From positions 1-64,000 of the forward strand of contig CANQLI010000003.1 in NCBI GenBank assembly GCA_947624675.1: 64,000 nucleotides of DNA, read 5' to 3'. The position numbers and the translations under genes are program-made. This DNA comes from an uncultured Clostridia bacterium (GTDB taxonomy: Bacteria; Bacillota; Clostridia; Oscillospirales; Ruminococcaceae). This document shows, piece after piece, positions 4,111 to 17,168 of this stretch; the stretch's first letter is position 1, and every line of letters starts with the position of its first letter. Below the pieces are notes generated by a model. It searched no databases, was not told the origin of the DNA, and worked only from the letters and a program-made list of their open reading frames with translations.

Positions 4111-6279
4111 TTGGAATACTATGCACATAAATCAGAGGACGGTAGAACACAAACTGTAAAAGAACATCTTGATTCAGTAGCAAGATTAGCGGAGTCGTTT
4201 TCAGTCCATATGTTTAAAGAATTTGTATTTTCCGCAGGAATGTTTCATGATATCGGAAAATATACCAAAATGTTTCAACGAAGGCTTAATGGTGAAAATA
4301 TTCACTTTGAACACTCTTGCTGCGGTGCTATTGAATGCAGCAAGAAAGTCAGTCCGATAGCTCTTATGCTTGAATACTGTATTATGGGACATCACTCAGG
4401 TCTTCCGGATGGTGGAACAGAAACAGACAGCGCTAGTAAATCTACCCTTTACGGACGCTTAAAGCGTGATAAGTATTATGTTGGAGAGTCTGATTACAGT
4501 GAATACAAAAAAGAAATAAACTTAAGTATTCCAGACGGAACAGCGCTTTTAAATGAGCTTAAAAGGATTTATAGCAATAATGGGAAAGACGAATTCATTG
4601 AAGCGTTTGCATTTTTCACTCGTTATGTTTTCTCGTGCCTTACTGATGCCGACTATCTTGATACCGAGAGATTTTGCAATCCGTTTGTAAACAGAAATCT
4701 TAGTGCGGATTTCTGTAAGGTCAAAGCGTTGGTAGAAGACAATTTTAAACATCTTAAGAAGGATACTCCACTTCGGAAGGCAAGAGGAAGACTTCAGCAT
4801 CAGGCATATCAAAACGCTGAAAAAGCGGCACAGATAAGTATATTAAATATGCCAACAGGAAGCGGTAAAACGCTTTGCAGCTTAAATATAGCTCTAAATA
4901 AGCTCACATCGCCGGGAAGTACAAAAAAGCGGATAATTTATGTTATACCTTACACAAGCGTTATTGAACAGACGGCTCAGACATTTGACGACATATTCGG
5001 AAAATACGCCGATATTTTACAGCATCATTCAGGGTACAGCTATGAAAGTAATAAAGACTATGAGAAGAACGAGCCCACTACTATGGATAAACTGAAAAAA
5101 GCTACCGAAAACTGGGATGCACCTATAATAATTACAACGAGCGTTCAGTTTTTTCAGTCGCTTTACCATTATAAAGGCTCGGGTCTAAGAAAGCTCCATA
5201 ATATGGCGGACAGTATCATTATTTTTGATGAGATACATCTTCTGCCGCTTGAAGTTCTCTTGCCGTGTCTCAGAGGTATAGGATTTATTACAAGATATCT
5301 GAATAGTGAAGCGGTTTTTCTGTCTGCGACAATGCCTGACTATGACAGATTGTTTCAAAAGTATCTTCCTGACTGCACGACCACTAAGCTTATGACTGAT
5401 AGAAAGGATTTCAAGTACTTTAAAAAGTGCAGATACATAAATCTCGGGAAAACTGATCTAGAAAGTATTGCGCTAAAATCTTCTCAGTATCAAAGCAGTC
5501 TGATAGTTGTCAATAAAAGAAAGACCGCAAGAGAGCTATTTAGCAGCCTTACTGGTTTAAAATATCATCTTTCCACATATATGACGCCTGTTGACCGTAC
5601 AAAAATAATTGAAAATATACGCCTGAATCTTGAAAATGTCGATAAAGTTACCGTTGTCTCGACATCTCTTATAGAGGTAGGCGTTGACCTTGATTTCAAT
5701 GCCGTGTTCCGCGAGATGGCAGGACTTGACAACATCCTTCAATCGGGCGGAAGATGTAACCGTGACGGAAGAAGAGAATGTGGAGATGTTTATGTATTCA
5801 AAACGGACGAAAAGCTTAACGGTGATATGCAGAACAGAGTAGATATAGTTAATGATCTTATCAAGAGATACGATGATATTTCTTCGCCTGAATGTATAGA
5901 GGAGTACTACAATCGTTTGTTTGATTTCAATAAGCGGAATATAGACAAAAAGTTACAAGCTAGCGGAATAGACAACATTGAGTTTAAAACATACGCTATG
6001 GATTTTGAATTTATAAAGGATGAGACAATAGGTATAGTTATAAATAACTGTGATGAATCCGAGAAGCTGATACAAAGACTTAAAAACAAAGACTATACGG
6101 TAAGAAGAGAACTTCAGAGATATACAGTTTCTCTGAGGCGCTATGAATTTGAGAATGCACTAAAGCTTGGTATTATTGACGACTTTGGTACCGGAGTGTA
6201 TGTCCTCACAAACAACAAATATTACGACAATAAAACGGGACTTGAAATAGAAAAATTTAATGATTATATTGTTGATTAA
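4111..6279 (+). CDS. cas3: CRISPR-associated nuclease/helicase Cas3 (type I-C)
   Basis: The effector nuclease-helicase recruited by Cascade to degrade target DNA. The 722 aa protein has an N-terminal HD nuclease domain (FHDIGK with H46/D47, EHS around H68, GHHSG at 93-97) followed by an SF2 helicase: Walker A PTGSGKT 248-254, DEIH 373-376, SAT 405-407 and motif VI QSGGRCNRDGR 544-554. All key residues are present, so it looks active. Translation starts at TTG, supported by AAGGAGG 7 bp upstream. It stands first in the canonical I-C order but is separated from cas5c by 228 bp holding a divergent small RNA unit, whose terminator U-tract overlaps the cas3 stop codon. Confidence 0.96.
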   Translation: MEYYAHKSEDGRTQTVKEHLDSVARLAESFSVHMFKEFVFSAGMFHDIGKYTKMFQRRLNGENIHFEHSCCGAIECSKKVSPIALMLEYCIMGHHSGLPDGGTETDSASKSTLYGRLKRDKYYVGESDYSEYKKEINLSIPDGTALLNELKRIYSNNGKDEFIEAFAFFTRYVFSCLTDADYLDTERFCNPFVNRNLSADFCKVKALVEDNFKHLKKDTPLRKARGRLQHQAYQNAEKAAQISILNMPTGSGKTLCSLNIALNKLTSPGSTKKRIIYVIPYTSVIEQTAQTFDDIFGKYADILQHHSGYSYESNKDYEKNEPTTMDKLKKATENWDAPIIITTSVQFFQSLYHYKGSGLRKLHNMADSIIIFDEIHLLPLEVLLPCLRGIGFITRYLNSEAVFLSATMPDYDRLFQKYLPDCTTTKLMTDRKDFKYFKKCRYINLGKTDLESIALKSSQYQSSLIVVNKRKTARELFSSLTGLKYHLSTYMTPVDRTKIIENIRLNLENVDKVTVVSTSLIEVGVDLDFNAVFREMAGLDNILQSGGRCNRDGRRECGDVYVFKTDEKLNGDMQNRVDIVNDLIKRYDDISSPECIEEYYNRLFDFNKRNIDKKLQASGIDNIEFKTYAMDFEFIKDETIGIVINNCDESEKLIQRLKNKDYTVRRELQRYTVSLRRYEFENALKLGIIDDFGTGVYVLTNNKYYDNKTGLEIEKFNDYIVD

Positions 6280-6367
6280 AAAAGTGGGCAGCTATACTGG
6301 GAAGCTGCCCACCAAGTCCTGAGACTATAAGATATTTAATATATTTCAACTCACTGCTTACGCAGAC
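6278..6367 (-). ncRNA. crRNA-like RNA, putative autorepressor of the cas operon (creR-like)
   Basis: Read on the minus strand. A repeat-like element at 6367-6343 holds the stem CTGC-GTAA-GCAG and then TGAGTTGAAAT; its last 12 nt, GTGAGTTGAAAT, equal the 3' end of the array repeat. A 30 nt spacer-like segment follows (6342-6313), then a perfect 10 bp hairpin (6312-6303 with 6293-6284) and six T (6283-6278), an intrinsic terminator. Pseudo-spacer positions 1-17 match the cas5c promoter (6476-6492) at 16 of 17 positions; the mismatch is position 12. The mapped promoter would start the RNA at about 6367. Known crRNA-like regulators (CreA/CreR in other CRISPR types) pair only partly with their target and guide Cascade to repress without cleavage. 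Assignment to type I-C autoregulation is inference. Confidence 0.8.
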
Positions 6368-6373
6368 ATATAT

Positions 6374-6402
6374 ATTATACCATTAAAACTATAAAAAATC
6401 AA
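6374..6402 (-). promoter_or_regulatory. Promoter of the crRNA-like RNA
   Basis: On the minus strand TTGATT (6397-6402), 17 bp spacer, TATAAT (6374-6379) preceded by TGG, an extended -10. A start 7 nt downstream falls on the first base of the repeat-like stem-loop, so the transcript would begin directly with it. Confidence 0.8.
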
Positions 6403-6454
6403 TAGTTGTTAATAATTACCAAAAATAATAGTGGATATTTGTGCAAATAGTAAC

Positions 6455-6492
6455 TTGACAAATGCAAACTTAAGGTATAATATATTTAATAT
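6455..6492 (+). promoter_or_regulatory. cas5c operon promoter overlapping a pseudo-spacer target
   Basis: TTGACA (6455-6460) and TATAAT (6476-6481), 15 bp apart, precede the cas5c ribosome binding site. The segment 6476-6492, TATAATATATTTAATAT, covers the -10 and the probable start point. It matches the complement of the crRNA-like pseudo-spacer at 16/17, including an unbroken 11 nt seed. The three bases flanking the protospacer on its 5' side read CTT on the minus strand, not the TTC usually reported for type I-C. Confidence 0.75.
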
Positions 6493-6507
6493 AAGGGAGG
6501 TGAAATG

Positions 6508-7227
6508 ATGAGTTACGGATTTAAAATTATCGTGGAAGGGGATTATGCTCTATTTACGCGTCCGGATACGAAAGTTGAACGCACTAGTTTTGAGGCTCCT
6601 ACCGTTTCGGCTTTGGAAGGTCTTATTAAATCTGTATATTGGAAGCCGGCGATTAGAATAATTATAGACAAAATAATAGTGTTTAATCCTATTAAGTTTA
6701 TCAATATCAGGCGAAATGAAGTCAAGAGCAAAATTTCTCTTTCGGCGGTAAAATCACAGATGAAAGGAATAGGAAACGCTGAAATTTATACCGATGACGA
6801 TCGAAGTCAGCGTGCCGGAATGATCTTAAAGGATGTAAGATACGGCGTTGAGTTTCATTTTGAACTGACGGGAATTAGATCGGAGCATTCCGATGAATGT
6901 GAAGAAAAGCACTATAACATATTCTTAAGAAGGCTTAAAAACGGTCAGTGTTTTCGTCAGCCGTGCCTTGGGTGCAGAGAATTTTCTGTAAAGAAAATCG
7001 AACTTGTAGAAGATTTTGACTTAAGTGAGATAAGCGAAGAACTAAAAGGCGATATTGATCTTGGATATATGCTTTACGGTATGAGATTCAAAGACGGCGG
7101 TGTTCCGATAAACAACGATTGGGAAAATCCAAAGTTTTCGGATAAAGCCGATGCAGTTTATTACCATCCGCATATGATCGATGGTGTGATTGATATTGCA
7201 AAATACAGGGAGGGGATAATATGTTAA
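6508..7227 (+). CDS. cas5c: Cas5c: crRNA-processing endoribonuclease and Cascade subunit
   Basis: In type I-C systems, which lack Cas6, Cas5c (Cas5d/Csd5 family) cleaves the pre-crRNA repeat and stays bound to the 5' handle in Cascade. About 239 aa, normal for the family. The N-terminal half shows the RAMP pattern (YGFKIIVEGDYALFTRPD, then FEAPTVSALEGLIKSVYW), with the C-terminal FRQPCLGCREF segment typical of I-C Cas5. Two adjacent ATGs exist (6505, 6508); spacing to GGGAGG favours 6508. It heads the cas5c-8c-7c-4-1-2 operon and overlaps cas8c by 7 bp. It would be expected to process the crRNA-like RNA as well if that RNA's shortened stem is recognised. Confidence 0.94.
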   Translation: MSYGFKIIVEGDYALFTRPDTKVERTSFEAPTVSALEGLIKSVYWKPAIRIIIDKIIVFNPIKFINIRRNEVKSKISLSAVKSQMKGIGNAEIYTDDDRSQRAGMILKDVRYGVEFHFELTGIRSEHSDECEEKHYNIFLRRLKNGQCFRQPCLGCREFSVKKIELVEDFDLSEISEELKGDIDLGYMLYGMRFKDGGVPINNDWENPKFSDKADAVYYHPHMIDGVIDIAKYREGIIC

Positions 7228-9068
7228 TTAAGGCTCTGTGCGACTATGCGGACAAGCTTGAAGAAAATCAAAACGGTGACAAGCAGTCCGAGGGCTGGAG
7301 CAAACAGGATGTGCATTTTCAGATAAGGCTTACACCTGACGGAGATATTGAAAGTATTGTTGATGTGCGTAGAGAGGAAAAGACCTATGACAAAAAAGGT
7401 AAGGAAAAGATTCGGTTAGTTCCGATAAAGGTCGTCCTTCCGACAAGAACACAGAAAAGCAGTATATGTTCAAACTTTATTGAACATCGTCCGTATTATA
7501 TCTTTGGACTTTCGTATGACAAAGACGGGTTTTCCGCTGAATCGGAAAATAATCGGGCAAGAAAATCTCACAAAGCATTTGTGGAGCATGAGCTTAAATT
7601 TTTTAATGGTCTTAATTCTGAGATATGTACTGCATACAGAAGGTTTGTACAAAAGTGGAAGCCTGAAGATGAAACGCATAATGAGGCTCTGCTAAAGCTT
7701 GGAAAAGAATATAAAAACGCTTATTTTTGTTTTGGACTTGCAGGTGCAAGAGGAAACCTTGAAGAAGATGAGCAGTTTGTTGAAAAATACAACAATTATA
7801 TTCTCAATCAAAACGATAAAGCTGATTCTGATGACGAGTCAGAGCTTGCCGTTTGTGGAATTCTCGGAGAAAAGCTTCCAATCGCAAGGGTACATAACAA
7901 GATTAAGTTTCCCGGCGGAAATCCGACCGGCTGTGTTCTTGTGGGAATGAAGAAAGCAGCTTATGAGTCTTACGGTAAAACACAGTCGTATAACAGTAAT
8001 ATTTCTGAAAAAGCGATGAAAAAATATACATCTGCTCTGAACACACTTTTGGAAGATAAAAGACACAGGGTAATGTTTGATGAGCTTGTGGTATTGTTTT
8101 TTGCAATGAAGAAAGATGACAGTAAGGAGTGCGAGGCCTTTTCGTTTATGTATTCGTCCTCTGAAGATAAGGCACAGAATATGCTCAGTAGTACATTTAA
8201 TGATGCGTTGGGCGGTGTTACTTCTGATGAAGAGGCTATGCGTAAGCTTGAGGTCGATAAAGATGTTACATTCTATGTGGCGGGGCTGACGCCTAACAGT
8301 TCAAGAATTTGTCAGAAGTTTATCTACCACGATAAATTCGGACACATTTTGCATAATCTTATGCAGCATCAAAGAGACCTTAAGATAGGTACAAAGGAAA
8401 ATAATCAGATTTATTTTTCTTATATTAAAAAGGAACTTATTTCTCCGAATGCGACGAACGCAAAGATACCGCCGCCGCTTATGACAAGCATAATGCTTTC
8501 GGCGATAAACGGCAGCAATTATCCGAGAGAGCTGCTTGAAACGGTAGTGAGAAGGGTAAAGTGCGACAGCGATACGGATAAAAATAAATATGTAAAACTT
8601 AACCGTGTAAGAGCGGGTATTATCAAGGCTTGTCTTAACAGAAAAGCCAGATTATCAGGAAAAGAGGAGGAAATTAAAATGTCACTTAATATGAACAACA
8701 GAGGCCCTGCATATCTTTGCGGAAGACTATTTGCGGTTTATGAGAAGATTCAGACGCTTGCATCGGGCGGAGGACTTAACAGAACAATCGTGGATTCGTA
8801 TTTTGCTTCAGCAAGCACAAGACCGTCAAGAATAATGCCAAAGCTTTCGCATCTTGCACAGGTGCATATGAGAAAACTAGAGGCAAAAGATGTTGAAACT
8901 TATTATGAAATGATAAGCAGCATAATGGACAAGCTTGACAGCGATGTGTTTCCACAGACACTTGATCTTGATTCTCAAGGCGCATTTATAATTGGCTTTT
9001 ATCAGCAAAAAAGATATATCAAATATTTAGAAAAAAATAGAAACGGAAAGGAAGAAAATCATGAATAA
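7221..9068 (+). CDS. cas8c: Cas8c (Csd1), large subunit of type I-C Cascade
   Basis: Large subunit that recognises the PAM and opens target DNA. 615 aa, usual Csd1 length, starting MLIKALCDYADKL, a typical Csd1 N-terminus. The C-terminal quarter from residue 487 (SLNMNNRGPAYLCGRLFAVYEKIQ) is the conserved Csd1 C-terminal block that also serves as the small subunit when translated separately. It overlaps cas5c upstream and cas7c downstream by a few bases, so the operon is translationally coupled. No frameshift is seen. Confidence 0.95.
   Translation: MLIKALCDYADKLEENQNGDKQSEGWSKQDVHFQIRLTPDGDIESIVDVRREEKTYDKKGKEKIRLVPIKVVLPTRTQKSSICSNFIEHRPYYIFGLSYDKDGFSAESENNRARKSHKAFVEHELKFFNGLNSEICTAYRRFVQKWKPEDETHNEALLKLGKEYKNAYFCFGLAGARGNLEEDEQFVEKYNNYILNQNDKADSDDESELAVCGILGEKLPIARVHNKIKFPGGNPTGCVLVGMKKAAYESYGKTQSYNSNISEKAMKKYTSALNTLLEDKRHRVMFDELVVLFFAMKKDDSKECEAFSFMYSSSEDKAQNMLSSTFNDALGGVTSDEEAMRKLEVDKDVTFYVAGLTPNSSRICQKFIYHDKFGHILHNLMQHQRDLKIGTKENNQIYFSYIKKELISPNATNAKIPPPLMTSIMLSAINGSNYPRELLETVVRRVKCDSDTDKNKYVKLNRVRAGIIKACLNRKARLSGKEEEIKMSLNMNNRGPAYLCGRLFAVYEKIQTLASGGGLNRTIVDSYFASASTRPSRIMPKLSHLAQVHMRKLEAKDVETYYEMISSIMDKLDSDVFPQTLDLDSQGAFIIGFYQQKRYIKYLEKNRNGKEENHE
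8679..9068 (+). CDS. cas11c: Cas11c small subunit from an internal start in cas8c
   Basis: Inside cas8c, and in frame with it, an ATG at codon 487 is preceded by AGAGGAGG with an 8 bp spacer, one of the best ribosome binding sites in the locus and in a place where a normal gene does not need one. Translation from it gives a 129 aa helical protein, MSLNMNNRGPAYLCGR onward, sharing the cas8c stop. In other type I-C systems the small subunit Cas11 is known to be made this way. The site itself is seen directly; its use here is inferred. Confidence 0.82.
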   Translation: MSLNMNNRGPAYLCGRLFAVYEKIQTLASGGGLNRTIVDSYFASASTRPSRIMPKLSHLAQVHMRKLEAKDVETYYEMISSIMDKLDSDVFPQTLDLDSQGAFIIGFYQQKRYIKYLEKNRNGKEENHE

Positions 9069-9945
9069 GATGAATGCAATTAAAAACAAGTACGATTTCG
9101 TAATACTATTTGATGTCGAAAACGGAAACCCGAACGGTGATCCCGATTCGGCTAATATGCCGAGGACGGACCCCGAAACATCATATGGTATAGTTACAGA
9201 TGTTTGCTTAAAAAGAAAGATAAGAAATTATGTTGAGCTTACAAGGGAGGGCGAGGGAGGATACAATATTCTCATCAAGGCAGACCGCGCTCTTAACTCG
9301 AAATTCACCGAGGCTTATGATGCACTTGGACTTGAAAAGAAGCAAAAAGGCAAAAATTCTGATGATGTTAAAAAGGCCCAGGAGTATATATGCGATAATT
9401 ATTTTGATGTCCGCACATTCGGAGCGGTAATGAGTACAGGCGACGATCAATGCGGTATAGTAAGAGGACCTGTTCAGATAAATTTTGCAAAGAGCCTTGA
9501 CCCTGTATTCACTCAGGATATAACCGTAACAAGACAGGCAGTGACCACCGAAAAGGATTTTGAAGAAAAGAAAAAAAGTGAGATGGGAAAAAAGAGCTTT
9601 GTATCATACGGACTGTACCGTGCGGAAGGATATGTATCCGCAATGCTTGCGCAAAAGGTAACTGGATTCAGCGAGGATGACCTTGAGCTTTTATGGGAAG
9701 CAATTAAAAATATGTTTGAGAATGATCACAGTGCTGCAAGAGGAAAAATGTGTTTAAGAAAGCTTTATGTTTTCAAACATTCGTCGCCTATCGGAAATGC
9801 TCCTTCACATATTTTATTTGACAAGATAAAGGTTGAGAGAAAAGCTGGAGTTGAGTTCCCGAGAAGCTTTGAAGACTATGAAGTTAGTGTGGATAATAAA
9901 ATGCCGGAGGATGTCGAGCTTAAAGAGCTTATCGACAATATATGA
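9061..9945 (+). CDS. cas7c: Cas7c (Csd2), Cascade backbone subunit
   Basis: Forms the helical filament along the crRNA. 294 aa. The N-terminal NKYDFVILFDVENGNPNGDPDSANMPR segment is the family hallmark (Csd2/Csh2), followed by TDVCLKRKIRNYVE and the later VRTFGAVMSTG and RGPVQINFAKS blocks. It begins 8 bp before the cas8c stop and ends overlapping cas4 by 4 bp. Complete and apparently functional. Confidence 0.96.
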   Translation: MNKMNAIKNKYDFVILFDVENGNPNGDPDSANMPRTDPETSYGIVTDVCLKRKIRNYVELTREGEGGYNILIKADRALNSKFTEAYDALGLEKKQKGKNSDDVKKAQEYICDNYFDVRTFGAVMSTGDDQCGIVRGPVQINFAKSLDPVFTQDITVTRQAVTTEKDFEEKKKSEMGKKSFVSYGLYRAEGYVSAMLAQKVTGFSEDDLELLWEAIKNMFENDHSAARGKMCLRKLYVFKHSSPIGNAPSHILFDKIKVERKAGVEFPRSFEDYEVSVDNKMPEDVELKELIDNI

Positions 9946-10616
9946 CTGATCTTACCGTAAATATCCGCAGTATTCAGCATTATATGTATTGTCCGAGACG
10001 ATATGGACTTCTTGAACTTAACAAGGATTGGGGCGAAAATTATTTTGTAGCAAATGCCGGTATTTTACACGAGCATGTCCACGACAAAAGTCACAACTTT
10101 ACTGACAGTAAAAAAATAGTAAGGAGTGCGGTTGCGCTGTACAATGATGTTGACGAATACGATTTGTACGGCGTTGCCGACTGTATAGAATTTATCCGAT
10201 CTGATACGGGAGTTGAGATCGGTGAGCTTTGCGGAAAATATAATGTCAAAATAGTTGAATATAAACCTAGCTCACCCAGGGGGACTCCTTTTCGGGACAC
10301 TGATGCGATACAGGTATTTGCACAGAAGATATGTGCGGATTATATTTGGGGATGTGACAGCGAGGCGTTTTTATACTATTCTGATACAAGGAAGCGTGTA
10401 GCTCTTCCTTTTTCGGAGGAATTTGAAAAATACGATACACTACTTAAAAAGCTACTTTCAGAAATGCGAGAGGTTATGAGTAAAAATCAGATTCCTCCAA
10501 GAAGGAGAGGGCAAAAATGTTCCGGATGTTCGGTAAAGGATGTTTGTTTTCCTAAGGATAAGAGATTTTGTGTAAGAGAGGAAATAATGTCTATGAAGAG
10601 GGATTGTGACATATGA
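9942..10616 (+). CDS. cas4: Cas4 iron-sulfur nuclease for spacer acquisition
   Basis: RecB-like exonuclease/endonuclease that trims prespacers and selects PAM-bearing ends together with Cas1. 224 aa. C17 in YMYCPRR plus three C-terminal cysteines (CSGC then VCF) form the expected 4Fe-4S ligands. D80 in YGVADC and the VEYK motif (E106, K108) give the PD-(D/E)xK nuclease centre. The ATG overlaps the cas7c stop in ATATGA, and the end overlaps cas1 by 4 bp. All catalytic residues are present. Confidence 0.95.
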   Translation: MTDLTVNIRSIQHYMYCPRRYGLLELNKDWGENYFVANAGILHEHVHDKSHNFTDSKKIVRSAVALYNDVDEYDLYGVADCIEFIRSDTGVEIGELCGKYNVKIVEYKPSSPRGTPFRDTDAIQVFAQKICADYIWGCDSEAFLYYSDTRKRVALPFSEEFEKYDTLLKKLLSEMREVMSKNQIPPRRRGQKCSGCSVKDVCFPKDKRFCVREEIMSMKRDCDI

Positions 10617-11635
10617 GAAAGCTTCTTAATTCATTATACATTCTTGATGAAACAGCTTGGCTGACACTTGACGGTGAAAATATCGTCTGTAAGTGTGAGG
10701 ACAATGAAAAGTTTCGTATGCCGTTTTCAAATATAGAGGATATATATTGCTTTAGCTATTTTGGGTGTTCACCGGCTTTAATGGGAAAATGTGCTGAGTA
10801 TGGTATAAGCTTGAGCTTTTTTTCGCCCGGAGGAAAATTTCTTGCAAGAGTAACAGGCAAGACAAAGGGAAATATTCTTTTAAGGAAAGCACAGTTTGAG
10901 CAATTTGCTTCTCCCAATCTGCTAATGATACAAAATACAGTAGCTGCAAAGCTTTCGAACACAAGACATCTTATAAAGCGATCAATGAGAGATAATCCGC
11001 AACTTGACAGCGATGGTATGCTCAGTAAGTGCATTGAGTATCTTGAAAGCGGAATTGAACATGTATATGAAATGCGTGATACCGAAACAATTATGGGCGT
11101 TGAAGGAAGCTGTGCTAAAGCGTATTTTAATATTTTTGATAGACTGATCCTTCATCAGAAAAAGGATTTTTATTTGACATCACGGACTAAGCGACCGCCG
11201 CTTGACCCGGTTAATGCTGTTTTGTCATTTTTATATACAATTATGACAAGCGCTTATACTTCGGCGCTTGAAAGTGTCGGTCTTGACAGTTGTTATGGCT
11301 TTTATCACGCTTTGCGACCCGGAAGGAGCAGTCTTGCTTGTGATCTTGTAGAAGAGACTAGGTGTATAGTGGAGCGCCTGACAATAACGATGATAAACTT
11401 AAAAAAGCTGAGCATCAAAGATTTTGAAAAACAGGAAAGCGGAGCTGTAATGCTCAACAAAGACGGAAAGAAAAAAGTTCTCACAGCATGGCAGGAGAAA
11501 AAACGAACAACAATTATCCACCCTTATCTTAACGAAAAAATTCCTTTAGGACTTTTACCTTTCGTGCAAAGCGCATTGCTTGCAAAGCATATAAGAGGGG
11601 AAATCAATGAGTATCCGTGTTATTTATTAAAGTAG
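10613..11635 (+). CDS. cas1: Cas1 integrase (type I-C)
   Basis: Metal-dependent integrase that inserts new spacers at the leader end. 340 aa, matching Cas1c. The metal ligands are E164 (GVEGSCAKAYF), H232 (YGFYHALRPGR) and D244/E247 (ACDLVEETR), all intact. The N-terminal beta domain contains the usual SPALMGKCAEYGISLSFFSPGG segment. Translationally coupled to cas4. The large array and a duplicated spacer inside it suggest that the adaptation module has been active. Confidence 0.97.
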   Translation: MRKLLNSLYILDETAWLTLDGENIVCKCEDNEKFRMPFSNIEDIYCFSYFGCSPALMGKCAEYGISLSFFSPGGKFLARVTGKTKGNILLRKAQFEQFASPNLLMIQNTVAAKLSNTRHLIKRSMRDNPQLDSDGMLSKCIEYLESGIEHVYEMRDTETIMGVEGSCAKAYFNIFDRLILHQKKDFYLTSRTKRPPLDPVNAVLSFLYTIMTSAYTSALESVGLDSCYGFYHALRPGRSSLACDLVEETRCIVERLTITMINLKKLSIKDFEKQESGAVMLNKDGKKKVLTAWQEKKRTTIIHPYLNEKIPLGLLPFVQSALLAKHIRGEINEYPCYLLK

Positions 11636-11644
11636 GTGATTCAT

Positions 11645-11935
11645 ATGATGGTGCTTGTGAGTTATGATGTATCGGTAACAGATAACAATGGTAAGAGTCG
11701 ATTGCGAAAGGTTGCAAAAGAATGTACAAATTACGGTCAGCGTGTTCAGAATTCAGTTTTTGAAATAGATGTTGATTATGCAACATTTATTAAGTTCAAA
11801 GACAGGCTGGTAAAGCTTATAGATGAAAGGCACGACAGTTTAAGATTTTATTATCTCGGCAGTAACTGGAAGAGGCGCGTAGAGCATTATGGAGTAAAAG
11901 AAACATATGATACGGAAGGTGTGATAATAGTATAG
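11645..11935 (+). CDS. cas2: Cas2 (adaptation complex subunit)
   Basis: Small ferredoxin-fold protein bridging Cas1 dimers during spacer integration. About 97 aa from the ATG at 11645, which lies 6 bp after AGGTG; a GTG at 11636 directly after the cas1 stop is less likely. The beta strand MMVLVSYDVSV carries the conserved Asp, and the C-terminal half ends in GVIIV. It is the last cas gene, followed by 153 bp of leader. Confidence 0.94.
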   Translation: MMVLVSYDVSVTDNNGKSRLRKVAKECTNYGQRVQNSVFEIDVDYATFIKFKDRLVKLIDERHDSLRFYYLGSNWKRRVEHYGVKETYDTEGVIIV

Positions 11936-12088: not shown

Positions 12089-15000
12089 GTCACGCCCCTC
12101 GTGGGCGTGTGAGTTGAAATTTTCGACCAGTTTGCAATAGCTTTTTTCATGCCGTCACGCCCCTCGTGGGCGTGTGAGTTGAAATTGAAATTTTAGAAAG
12201 AAGGTATAAAACTATGACAAGTCACGCCCCTCGTGGGCGTGTGAGTTGAAATTTTTGCCGCTGTATCCATCTCTCCGCCCAGATTGTCACGCCCCTCGTG
12301 GGCGTGTGAGTTGAAATATCGTCGGTTGACATAGATTCCAGCAGTGGATTGTCACGCCCCTCGTGGGCGTGTGAGTTGAAATTCGTATGCTGACATAAAG
12401 AATATAAATGTAAATTCGTCACGCCCCTCGTGGGCGTGTGAGTTGAAATGATTTCTATTAAGCATAATGGACGGATAATAAATATGTCACGCCCCTCGTG
12501 GGCGTGTGAGTTGAAATTTATTAGAAAAAAGAGAAATAGCAGGAAAACCCGTCACGCCCCTCGTGGGCGTGTGAGTTGAAATTCAAGATTCGTCATTCAA
12601 AATCGGAAAAATTATTGGTCACGCCCCTCGTGGGCGTGTGAGTTGAAATTCTTATCGGGCGGGATTGCTATTCCGCCCGAATAGTCACGCCCCTCGTGGG
12701 CGTGTGAGTTGAAATCGATAATAAATGGGATTTTTGTATCATTGCTAGCGTCACGCCCCTCGTGGGCGTGTGAGTTGAAATAACGCTTGGGCGGCTAGCA
12801 ACACAGTTGTATAAAGTCACGCCCCTCGTGGGCGTGTGAGTTGAAATTCTTTTTCGCTTCCGCTAACTGACTCATTAGGTGTCACGCCCCTCGTGGGCGT
12901 GTGAGTTGAAATTATCTCACCTGTATCCTTGTCAATTGCCTTTAAGGTCACGCCCCTCGTGGGCGTGTGAGTTGAAATCATTATGTTGAATATATGGTGT
13001 TTCGAACAAAAGGTCACGCCCCTCGTGGGCGTGTGAGTTGAAATATTGAAAAACTAAATATGTCAAACAGTTTGCAGAGTCACGCCCCTCGTGGGCGTGT
13101 GAGTTGAAATTATTTATTTTATGGAAGTGATAAAATGTCAAAAAGTCACGCCCCTCGTGGGCGTGTGAGTTGAAATCTTCATTTACTAACGGCTTAACCA
13201 CTTCACTAAGTCACGCCCCTCGTGGGCGTGTGAGTTGAAATTTAACTGTGTAGAATTAGAAACATAATTTGTAATGTCACGCCCCTCGTGGGCGTGTGAG
13301 TTGAAATGTTCTAGTACATATCCGTCACCCCTTAAAAATTTGTCACGCCCCTCGTGGGCGTGTGAGTTGAAATTACGAAAAATAGGATTATCGTAACAAT
13401 CTAATGTAGTCACGCCCCTCGTGGGCGTGTGAGTTGAAATTGTACTGTATTAGAATTGTTACTACCTGCTAATGTCACGCCCCTCGTGGGCGTGTGAGTT
13501 GAAATAGATAACACATATCAACATACAATATATTTTGACGTCACGCCCCTCGTGGGCGTGTGAGTTGAAATCCACTGAAGAAGAGTTAGCAAATTATAAA
13601 TTTCCACGTCACGCCCCTCGTGGGCGTGTGAGTTGAAATACCTACAGTTGAAAAGATGTTCAATCGCCCAGAGTCACGCCCCTCGTGGGCGTGTGAGTTG
13701 AAATGGTGTGCCAACACCGAAGGGCGTGCAAGAAAACCCCGTCACGCCCCTCGTGGGCGTGTGAGTTGAAATTGCTTTTATACTCCAAAAATGCATAATA
13801 CAGCCCCGTCACGCCCCTCGTGGGCGTGTGAGTTGAAATAGGAACTGCGCGATGCTATTCGACAGGGTTAACGGTCACGCCCCTCGTGGGCGTGTGAGTT
13901 GAAATTAAGCGACTATGGGAAAAATATATAAATCCAGACGAGTCACGCCCCTCGTGGGCGTGTGAGTTGAAATTAAGCGACTATGGGAAAAATATATAAA
14001 TCCAGAGTCACGCCCCTCGTGGGCGTGTGAGTTGAAATCTTTGTTTTTGTTATATCGGCGGTTTTCACCGCCGAGTCACGCCCCTCGTGGGCGTGTGAGT
14101 TGAAATGTCGCCGTATACACCGATGACCCGTTTTTGCGTGGTCACGCCCCTCGTGGGCGTGTGAGTTGAAATGGTGTCACCCTCACCTGTACAGATAGCG
14201 ACATGTCGTCACGCCCCTCGTGGGCGTGTGAGTTGAAATATTTTCTGTTGCCTGCCTAACATAACTAGGGGACGCGTCACGCCCCTCGTGGGCGTGTGAG
14301 TTGAAATTTTTTGTGCGGTGGTGCAGACGATTGATGTCCCCGAGTCACGCCCCTCGTGGGCGTGTGAGTTGAAATTTTGGTTAGCTGTTTGCCTATCTGA
14401 TTCACGCCCGTCACGCCCCTCGTGGGCGTGTGAGTTGAAATTGGTCGCCCATCGGCGGATCGTATTTTCGTTTAGTCACGCCCCTCGTGGGCGTGTGAGT
14501 TGAAATTTCGAGTTGGAAACAATCAAAAAACAACATATGCGTCACGCCCCTCGTGGGCGTGTGAGTTGAAATTAAAAATGGTATGTTTAGATTTAAAAAT
14601 TTAGAGTGTCACGCCCCTCGTGGGCGTGTGAGTTGAAATTGGCTTTCTATCCTAAGTTGTCTAAGTCTATTCATAGTCACGCCCCTCGTGGGCGTGTGAG
14701 TTGAAATTTTCTTCGTTGCCGTAGGTTGTGACTGTTTTTTGTCACGCCCCTCGTGGGCGTGTGAGTTGAAATCTGCAGCCCTTGCTATGATTTGTCTGTC
14801 CTTTGCGTCACGCCCCTCGTGGGCGTGTGAGTTGAAATTTGTCAACAACAACTTCTTGCCCTTTTTCACGCTGTCACGCCCCTCGTGGGCGTGTGAGTTG
14901 AAATAGTTTTTCGTTTACCTCTTCGGCGATTTTGTCTGCGGTCACGCCCCTCGTGGGCGTGTGAGTTGAAATCTCCTTTTTCAGTTGTTTCCCAACCTGA

Positions 15001-17168
15001 TTAATACCGTCACGCCCCTCGTGGGCGTGTGAGTTGAAATGGATATTTTATTAAATGCATCTGTTGTTTCCCTATGTCACGCCCCTCGTGGGCGTGTGAG
15101 TTGAAATTATTTTTGCATAATTGATTTCCGCCGTTTCCGCTAAGTCACGCCCCTCGTGGGCGTGTGAGTTGAAATTATTTGCGAAAATTTCAGGTAGAAT
15201 CTGTAAACAGGTCACGCCCCTCGTGGGCGTGTGAGTTGAAATTGCCGGATGTACTAGGCATATCCGGCTGATGGAAGTCACGCCCCTCGTGGGCGTGTGA
15301 GTTGAAATTCGTCTCTATCAGATATCAAATATTCGTCTACTATGTCACGCCCCTCGTGGGCGTGTGAGTTGAAATCAATTGAAAGCCCAAAAGTATTTCG
15401 GACATCTGGTCACGCCCCTCGTGGGCGTGTGAGTTGAAATACGGATGTTGGAGCTACTCTTACTCGTAAAATTGTCACGCCCCTCGTGGGCGTGTGAGTT
15501 GAAATCTTTGGAGATGCGACACTTTACCTTGCCTAACTTGGGTCACGCCCCTCGTGGGCGTGTGAGTTGAAATTATTTTCTAAAAAGTCAAGTGTGATAA
15601 GGATGGAGTCACGCCCCTCGTGGGCGTGTGAGTTGAAATAATTCTTTGTAATCAATCAACTCAGAATAACAATGTCACGCCCCTCGTGGGCGTGTGAGTT
15701 GAAATTTTGTCTATCAGAAAAATACGACCTATTTTTGCCGTCACGCCCCTCGTGGGCGTGTGAGTTGAAATGTCATTTTTTAAAAAAGGAGAATTAAAAG
15801 ATTAAGTCACGCCCCTCGTGGGCGTGTGAGTTGAAATACAAATTACCATCGGCACCCATATAAACCATAAAAGTCACGCCCCTCGTGGGCGTGTGAGTTG
15901 AAATCGTCAACAAACGGCTCATAAGTAGAAAGTGCTCCCCGTCACGCCCCTCGTGGGCGTGTGAGTTGAAATTATGAAGCATTGGGGTACGGTAGTTTCG
16001 GAGAATAGTCACGCCCCTCGTGGGCGTGTGAGTTGAAATTAATACGGGGCTAGAAATGAAAGCAACTAAAGACCGTCACGCCCCTCGTGGGCGTGTGAGT
16101 TGAAATTAAGAGCGATGATGATGTATTGGATGTACTAGAAGTCACGCCCCTCGTGGGCGTGTGAGTTGAAATATGCGTTACCCGTGAACAGGCAGAGAAT
16201 CAACCTGTCACGCCCCTCGTGGGCGTGTGAGTTGAAATCCTCGGCAGGGCGGTAAGAGACAGCAAAAACGCACGTCACGCCCCTCGTGGGCGTGTGAGTT
16301 GAAATTAAGTTTCGCCGTAAAGTATGTGCCTGTTTTTGAGGTCACGCCCCTCGTGGGCGTGTGAGTTGAAATATAGGCAAAAACGGCAGATTTCGGTCTG
16401 AATATGAGGGTCACGCCCCTCGTGGGCGTGTGAGTTGAAATCATTCACGGTGTAGATGCGCTGACCCTGATATAGTCACGCCCCTCGTGGGCGTGTGAGT
16501 TGAAATCCGTGTAATATACGGCGCAGTATCGCCCGAGGCAAGTCACGCCCCTCGTGGGCGTGTGAGTTGAAATTTCGGCAGGCACAAAAATAAAATAGGC
16601 GCAGACGTCACGCCCCTCGTGGGCGTGTGAGTTGAAATTTTTTCTAGCTTCAGATATTTTTAAAAATCCCGGTCACGCCCCTCGTGGGCGTGTGAGTTGA
16701 AATCATAATCTAATTGGTTCTTTTATCTCATTACCACGTCACGCCCCTCGTGGGCGTGTGAGTTGAAATTTATGTACATTCTATCAAAGTCGTAAGGGTA
16801 CATTCGTCACGCCCCTCGTGGGCGTGTGAGTTGAAATGGTAAGCATAGCTGCTGTCATAATTCTGTTGCCACGTCACGCCCCTCGTGGGCGTGTGAGTTG
16901 AAATAGCTTTCCGCTGATTGACCGCTGCGACTGATGGCGTCACGCCCCTCGTGGGCGTGTGAGTTGAAATGGGACTGGCGTCAACAGGAGTAAACCAGAT
17001 TGGGTCACGCCCCTCGTGGGCGTGTGAGTTGAAATTGCCGTTATCTGACCGTTTAACTGCGCTAGCGTTGGTCACGCCCCTCGTGGGCGTGTGAGTTGAA
17101 ATTCAATGCCAAAATGCGCGATATTGTAAACCCACAGTCACGCCCTTTGTGGGCGTGTGAGTTGAAAT
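12089..17168 (+). CRISPR. Type I-C CRISPR array, 77 repeats and 76 spacers
   Basis: A 32 bp repeat begins GTCACGCCCC and ends GTGAGTTGAAAT; its middle forms the stem CACGCCC/GGGCGTG around CTCGT. I counted 77 copies by hand, with spacers mostly 33-37 nt (mean about 34). All copies read as identical except the last (17137-17168), which has T at positions 10 and 12, marking the trailer end. Transcription is therefore left to right. Spacers 28 (13906-13941) and 29 (13974-14006) share their first 33 nt exactly. The GTTGAAAT end becomes the 5' handle of the crRNA after Cas5c cleavage. Short ORFs across the array are translations of the repeat, not genes. Confidence 0.99.

Follow-up and report, generated by a model that had tools for sequence, protein, structure and literature searches.

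A type I-C CRISPR (clustered regularly interspaced short palindromic repeats) locus from an uncultured Clostridia bacterium of the family Ruminococcaceae raises the question of why the end of a CRISPR repeat should occur outside the array, on the minus strand, between cas3 and cas5c. The locus is complete (cas3, cas5c, cas8c, cas7, cas4, cas1c, cas2 and a CRISPR array) and lies within positions 1 to 64,000 of contig CANQLI010000003.1, the whole stretch of DNA that was analyzed, here called the window. The repeat end is part of a compact predicted transcription unit on the minus strand, which consists of a promoter, a hairpin, an 11-nucleotide (nt) repeat handle, a pseudo-spacer and a terminator (Table 1). 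An earlier note on this DNA had read the unit as a CRISPR RNA (crRNA)-like RNA involved in self-regulation of the type I-C system. Covariation between guide and promoter in related loci supports this reading, and we consider it very probable that the element is a CreR-type, Cascade-guided autorepressor, with its transcription, processing by Cas5c and repressive action predicted from sequence.

On the plus strand of the window, 77 copies of the final 12 nt of the array repeat make up those of the array; the minus strand has one copy, which is in the element. This exact repeat end, the GTAA-loop hairpin before it and the minus-strand promoter (TTGATT-17-TATAAT, with a TGG that makes it an extended -10) are all present as previously described. 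The hairpin occupies the place of the longer stem of the array repeat. The pseudo-spacer, previously given as 30 nt, measures 29 nt. It is followed, as had been proposed, by an intrinsic terminator, whose stem ends in a G-U pair and whose run of six Ts begins within that pair; a terminator scanner left it uncalled because its loop limit is 8 nt and the loop here has 9 nt. The RNA folds with -28.3 kcal/mol (z = -2.82), a value equaled in 3 of 200 shuffles. The element contains a single repeat remnant with a terminator and not a mini-CRISPR, i.e., a spacer between two repeats.

The first 17 nt of the pseudo-spacer are complementary to the cas5c promoter, and the match reported earlier, 16 of 17 positions in the -10/start region with a sole mismatch at position 12, is confirmed. 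The target covers the cas5c -10 and the predicted transcription start; the two alternative -10 calls, TATAAT (15-nt spacing) and TAATAT two bases on, both fall within it. Only one other site in the 64-kb window, with both strands considered, reaches at least 14/17 (14/17 at 15332). When a YTY (Y, pyrimidine) protospacer adjacent motif (PAM) and at most one mismatch over the 15 positions that are not multiples of six were specified, the 2.08-Mb genome contained a single site, the cas5c promoter, and a reversed-pattern control gave 0 sites. Because the array spacers are 33-37 nt long and pairing extends over 17 nt, the guide pairs over about half a spacer, in agreement with the earlier note.

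The targeted promoter runs straight into the Shine-Dalgarno-like site and the start of cas5c, and six-frame translation of 6400-6504 revealed no toxin-like open reading frame (ORF) between the element and cas5c. Both observations speak against a CreA-type antitoxin, whose repression of a toxin would make the cell dependent on CRISPR. The element does share the RNA logic of CreTA, and in one distant locus discussed below (L132) an 85-aa ORF lies behind the target; nevertheless, we regard this explanation as highly improbable for the window.

Table 1. Coordinates of the crRNA-like element, its target and the surrounding type I-C locus in the window
Feature	Position	Strand	Remark
Predicted promoter of crRNA-like RNA	6374..6402	-	TTGATT (6402-6397), 17 nt, TATAAT (6379-6374)
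Hairpin CTGC-GTAA-GCAG	6354..6365	-	directly upstream of handle; predicted Cas5c processing site
11-nt handle TGAGTTGAAAT	6343..6353	-	identical to 3' end of array repeat
Pseudo-spacer, 29 nt	6314..6342	-	guide part 6342-6326 matches cas5c promoter
Intrinsic terminator	6278..6313	-	11-bp stem, 9-nt loop, T run
Target (target strand = + strand)	6476..6492	+	16/17 paired, mismatch at guide position 12
PAM CTT on non-target strand	6493..6495	-	AAG on +, first bases of Shine-Dalgarno-like AAGGGAGG
Predicted cas5c promoter	6455..6483	+	TTGACA-17-TAATAT or TTGACA-15-TATAAT (two promoter predictions)
cas3 (Cas3' helicase + Cas3'' HD)	4111..6279	+	upstream of targeted promoter
cas5c-cas8c-cas7-cas4-cas1-cas2	6505..11935	+	predicted under targeted promoter
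CRISPR array	12089..17168	+	77 repeats, spacers 33-37 nt

Related loci were collected by a Cas5c scan of genome contigs, which yielded at least 80 loci; in the genus of the window, Cas5c was matched in 4 of 15 genomes. Handles (TGAGT[TA]GAAA[TC] within 3.2 kb upstream of cas5c) were searched for in 82 loci, i.e., 80 relatives, L084 and the window, with L001 (the window), L082 (L002) and L083 (L003) left out as duplicates. At least one handle was present in 37 loci, and the total was 41 ectopic handles. Five of these, the second repeats in L028 (at 1089) and L037 (at 5586), one handle within cas3 in L066 (at 2856) and two in L067, were dropped after the match results had been seen and before counting, which left 36; none of the five has a match, and targets were thus found for 31 of the 41 handles.

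For each handle, the best site within 500 nt on either strand was chosen without a PAM filter and scored on 15 of positions 1-17, skipping multiples of six. Among the 36 handles, 20 had no mismatch, 9 had one, 2 had two and 5 had three to five. When pseudo-spacers were swapped between loci, excluding pairs with 12 or more identical positions, 0 of 1140 combinations had 0 or 1 mismatch and 26 had two; shuffled spacers gave no perfect match in 720 trials, one mismatch in 3 and two in 17. The 31 targets with at most two mismatches are all located 12-342 nt upstream of cas5c or cas3 (gene starts being extrapolated from tblastn), 21 of them within 60 nt. Their PAMs, which were not used in the search, are CTT (19), CTC (9) and TTC (3), and the protospacer strand is antisense to the operon in 30 of 31 cases, the exception being L033. 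The target overlaps the best predicted -10 in 14 of the 31 loci; in the window, L002, L003, L012 and L017, its far end coincides with the first base of the predicted -10, which for the window is the TATAAT at 15-nt spacing.

The phase of the mismatches was analyzed by weighting all 17 positions equally and by a leave-one-out procedure. With equal weights, 33 of the 36 handles had at most four mismatches, and 45 of their 64 mismatches fell at positions 6 and 12 and 8 at position 17. The leave-one-out match was 12/34 at position 6, 9/34 at position 12 and 25/33 at position 17, with all other positions between 29/33 and 33/33. Skipping multiples of six produced 20 zero-mismatch loci, and any other phase 1 or 2. 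Pairing is nearly invariant at positions 1-5, 7-11 and 13-16 and at background level at 6, 12 and past 17, where the match rate is at most 11/31. The mismatch at position 12 in the window, which had been attributed to the every-sixth positions, belongs to this rule seen in unrelated spacers. The swaps, shuffles and phase controls, together with the random positions described below, rule out chance as the cause of the matches.

Every sixth guide nucleotide is described as flipped out in Class 1 CRISPR complexes (PMC11127173), and for this reason the six-base pattern beside a YTY PAM is the mark of a Cascade-type hybrid. No such pattern would be expected of RNA-RNA pairing in the absence of a complex of this kind, which bears on the idea that the element is an ordinary cis-antisense RNA pairing with cas3-cas5c read-through mRNA, the repeat-like handle being incidental. 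As this idea would have it, any read-through transcript from cas3 into cas5c would be antisense to the element, and no T run follows the plus-strand hairpin behind cas3. However, the complement that is conserved falls within the -10 region, most of it before the predicted start of transcription; an RNA-RNA duplex needs neither an exact handle nor conservation of a YTY PAM and of a six-base period of mismatches; and in other clades the element is found in sense orientation or ahead of cas3. Pairing with mRNA is therefore a very unlikely account of these data.

Guides and promoters also change together. Pairwise comparison of the 11 loci with an antisense element in the cas3-cas5c gap yielded 325 differences between spacers at positions that pair with the target. 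Of these, 285 are mirrored by the corresponding change in the promoter (the pairs are not mutually independent); for positions 6 and 12, the figure is only 2 of 77. L002, the closest relative, differs from the window at three paired positions (1, 7 and 8), each time with a matching promoter change; in L003 this is so for one of two such differences. The pseudo-spacer thus does not drift freely with respect to the promoter, the behavior that the earlier note had named as speaking against self-regulation. The same covariation, together with the absence of any swapped pair with at most one mismatch, is difficult to reconcile with a CRISPR repeat and spacer that persist near the operon as a degenerate relic. 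Ectopic repeats are known to degenerate, according to PMC9458426, and just the last 12 nt of the repeat are left here, but the handle is exact although the stem is a different hairpin, and both promoter and terminator are retained. The probability of a relic appears close to negligible.

The 36 elements differ in position: 11, including that of the window, are antisense in the gap between cas3 and cas5c, 4 (L076-L079) are in the gap on the sense strand, and 21 are located upstream of cas3 on either strand. Two hosts of the element, Lachnospiraceae bacterium A4 (L033) and Mordavella massiliensis An420c (L052), bear strain names and are probably cultured. In the 78 loci with both genes, the cas3-cas5c gap spans 14-58 nt in 52 loci, 67-161 nt in 11 and 200-416 nt in 15, and 14 of the last 15 have a handle within it (the exception is L013). 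Of the 70 loci whose upstream DNA is complete, 31 have an element as defined by a generic handle and at most two mismatches. In a quick Cas5c tree of 80 rows, position types fall largely into separate groups, with at least 21 state changes, and close kin may differ, e.g., L008 has the element and its sister L004 does not.

Judged by eye, elements of the window type have a terminator-like hairpin about 20-30 nt past the handle, and ten loci (L021, L023-L026, L028, L032, L034, L035 and L037) have a mini-CRISPR with a short spacer, in which a second repeat-like hairpin follows the handle after 21 nt (24 in L035). The sequence of the hairpin preceding the handle varies among the gap elements (L005 from 6343 upwards, with CTAC-AATA-GTAG; L019 from 7811 upwards) and the handle is nearly constant; what is conserved in these elements is a stem, not the stem sequence of the repeat. 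Promoters preceding the handle score at least 10.5 on the scale of our script in L002, L003, L005, L008, L012, L017, L019 and L020 and are weaker in L018 and L033 (7.5 and 9.5). In L076 (7913), L077 (3022) and L078 (3102), the unit is on the plus strand, about 85-90 nt before cas5c and presumably in the 5' leader of its mRNA; a repressor of this kind would be excised from the message that it represses. The targets in these three loci seem, by eye, to lie upstream of the -35.

Several further observations concern individual loci. L067 has two ectopic TGAGTTGAAAT repeat ends 66 nt apart (5352 and 5418), upstream of cas3, which differ in type from its own array (GGGAGTAGAAAT); a target was looked for and none was found. 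A link between the element and cas4-cas1-cas2 was considered and dropped as too weak: among loci with more than 5.6 kb downstream, all three genes were present in 30 of 31 with the element versus 24 of 28 without it. By tblastn, L004, L010, L015, L017 and L080 have no cas1 or cas2 behind cas7, and cas4 was seen only in L010; the element is absent in four of these five, and genes of L080 may be missed because this locus is distant. In the array of the window, spacers 28 and 29 (36 and 33 nt long) share a common 33-nt sequence, a tandem duplication within the array (13906-14006). Comparison of the array with phages gave one record, a 67% match over several pieces that resembles another array, and the 22-nt starts of four array spacers had no match in viral contigs.

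A wider sample of 398 genomes was drawn from the phylum, 110 of which had a match to Cas5d (TIGR01876). For 100 such matches the upstream side was inspected, and 200 handle-like sites were tested; ten had at most two mismatches, and seven are credible (L122, L126, L132, L184, L188, L189 and L199). Their PAMs are TTC, TTT or CTT, and five of them have a different handle, TGGATTGAAAT/C. Six of the seven have a mismatch at position 6 and/or 12 and lose the match near position 17; L189 matches all 17 positions. In the control with random positions, 3 of 6000 had at most one mismatch and a YTY PAM. The three other sites were set aside, two (L135, L140) since they resemble duplicated repeat-spacer units and one (L135) since it lacks a suitable PAM. 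That the pairing rule holds in Clostridia is well supported. The targets in L126 and L132 appear, by eye, to be upstream of the -35. In L132, the 85-aa ORF (171-428) is located behind the targeted site, between the site and the element, and could be a CRISPR-repressed gene other than a cas gene.

A number of findings weigh against autorepression, or against its generality. By the above definition, 39 of the 70 complete loci are without the element, which is therefore dispensable. This number includes L079, which has no convincing target, L076 and L077, which match from position 3 on and are mismatched at 1 and 2, and L063 and L074, which pair only to about position 13. The 17 targets that do not overlap the predicted -10 lie up to 23 nt beyond it or upstream, the promoter calls being uncertain. 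For B. halodurans, PMC6546366 gives NTTC as the type I-C PAM, whereas the window uses CTT. Finally, a limited scan found no element in 12 plasmid-borne I-C loci, ten from outside Bacillota and two (L217 and L227) from Bacillota; the few matches were duplicated repeat units or had two mismatches and no YTY PAM. This negative result is weak: no cas3-cas5c part is annotated in L217, L220 and L225, L219 carries no annotation, and the handle pattern cannot detect how the repeat ends in L226.

The variable position of the targets also bears on how bound Cascade would act. Instead of simply repressing, it might activate, or form a roadblock to cas3 read-through that sets the Cas3:Cascade ratio. Activation is conceivable where the target appears by eye to be upstream of the -35 (L078, L126 and L132), and cas3 of the window is not under the targeted promoter. 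For the window and the loci closest to it, however, the R-loop would form over the -10 itself, where binding should block initiation, and an action other than repression seems unlikely.

A model of autorepression that is consistent with the observed anatomy, target uniqueness, covariation, PAM restriction, 6-nt phase and 17-nt limit is as follows. Transcription of the crRNA-like RNA would start at a dedicated promoter between cas3 and cas5c, run antisense to the cas operon and stop at the RNA's own terminator. Cas5c would cut at the base of the small hairpin to generate a normal 11-nt handle, and type I-C Cascade would take up the processed RNA as it does a crRNA. The first 17 nt of the guide would then direct Cascade to the cas5c promoter through the CTT PAM and a perfect seed, with positions 6 and 12 unread. 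The short R-loop over the -10 and start region would block RNA polymerase and, at 17 nt, would probably be too short for Cas3 recruitment, leaving the target uncleaved. Plentiful Cascade would thus turn down the cas5c-cas8c-cas7-cas4-cas1-cas2 operon, and Cascade occupied by crRNAs or anti-CRISPRs would release it, by analogy with CreR as described in PMC12737573 and PMC13131331, so that the operon might sense crRNA load. For a type I-B system, PMC10989794 reports that spacers of 21-24 nt repress strongly and those of 20 nt less so, that no new spacers are acquired with 20-24-nt spacers (primed adaptation is absent), and that pairing of up to 24 bp is judged safe with active Cas3.

More broadly, we lean toward the view that RNA-guided autorepression is widespread and has been repeatedly rebuilt in Clostridia type I-C systems, that a strict rule (YTY PAM, pairing at 1-5, 7-11 and 13-17 and none thereafter) enables a Cascade competent for cutting to bind the cell's own genome and leave it uncut, and that in the lineage of the window the Cascade and adaptation genes are governed apart from cas3. 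CRISPR self-repression would thereby be extended to type I-C, one of the commonest subtypes, with a sequence rule sharp enough for such RNAs to be found computationally. Natural covariation would also provide a record, from living cells, of the guide positions relevant to Cascade binding, in which 6 and 12 are irrelevant and nothing is kept past 17, and of the PAMs that accompany binding without self-destruction. According to the model, Cas expression in these bacteria should rise in response to anti-CRISPRs or a high crRNA load, and it should be possible for cas3 to be controlled separately from Cascade.

Among known systems, CreR is the closest in design, as a crRNA-like RNA with partial complementarity to a cas promoter and effector-guided autorepression, the last being predicted here. 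CreR is reported for types I-B, I-E and V-A in PMC13131331 and for "Type I and Type V-A" in PMC12737573, and one review terms it a mini-CRISPR RNA (PMC12948488). The suggestion that a type I-C example may be new fits the types named in these accounts; no type I-C case appeared in the titles and abstract openings covered on CreR and cas autoregulation, and the one relevant paper that has both CreR and I-C mentions I-C in another context; the original CreR paper lies outside this coverage and might mention I-C. The window element shares with CreR a repeat remnant outside the array beside cas genes, partial cas-promoter complementarity with a PAM, and no coupling to a toxin. It differs in its type (I-C) and predicted Cas5c processing, in having just one 11-nt handle, accompanied by a hairpin and a terminator of its own, where CreR is described as a two-repeat mini-CRISPR, in being antisense inside the operon and targeting the promoter of the effector and adaptation genes and not cas3, and in its 6-nt pairing phase, read from natural covariation. 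The long-form trans-activating CRISPR RNA (tracrRNA), a natural single guide of type II-A systems, autorepresses Cas9 and resembles the element, as modeled, in that an RNA with a truncated match to a cas promoter guides the autorepression, but both the RNA and the effector (tracrRNA and Cas9) are unrelated. CreA of CreTA (type I-B and others), as presented in PMC9458426, has a degenerate repeat and a pseudo-spacer with short promoter pairing and uses Cascade as the repressor, as predicted for the element; unlike CreA, the window element has no linked toxin and its target is the cas operon itself. The small CRISPR-associated RNA (scaRNA) of Francisella novicida (type II), described in the same source, also has a degenerate repeat, a 15-bp match and a role in transcriptional repression, but it acts with Cas9 on lipoprotein genes (PMC9458426).

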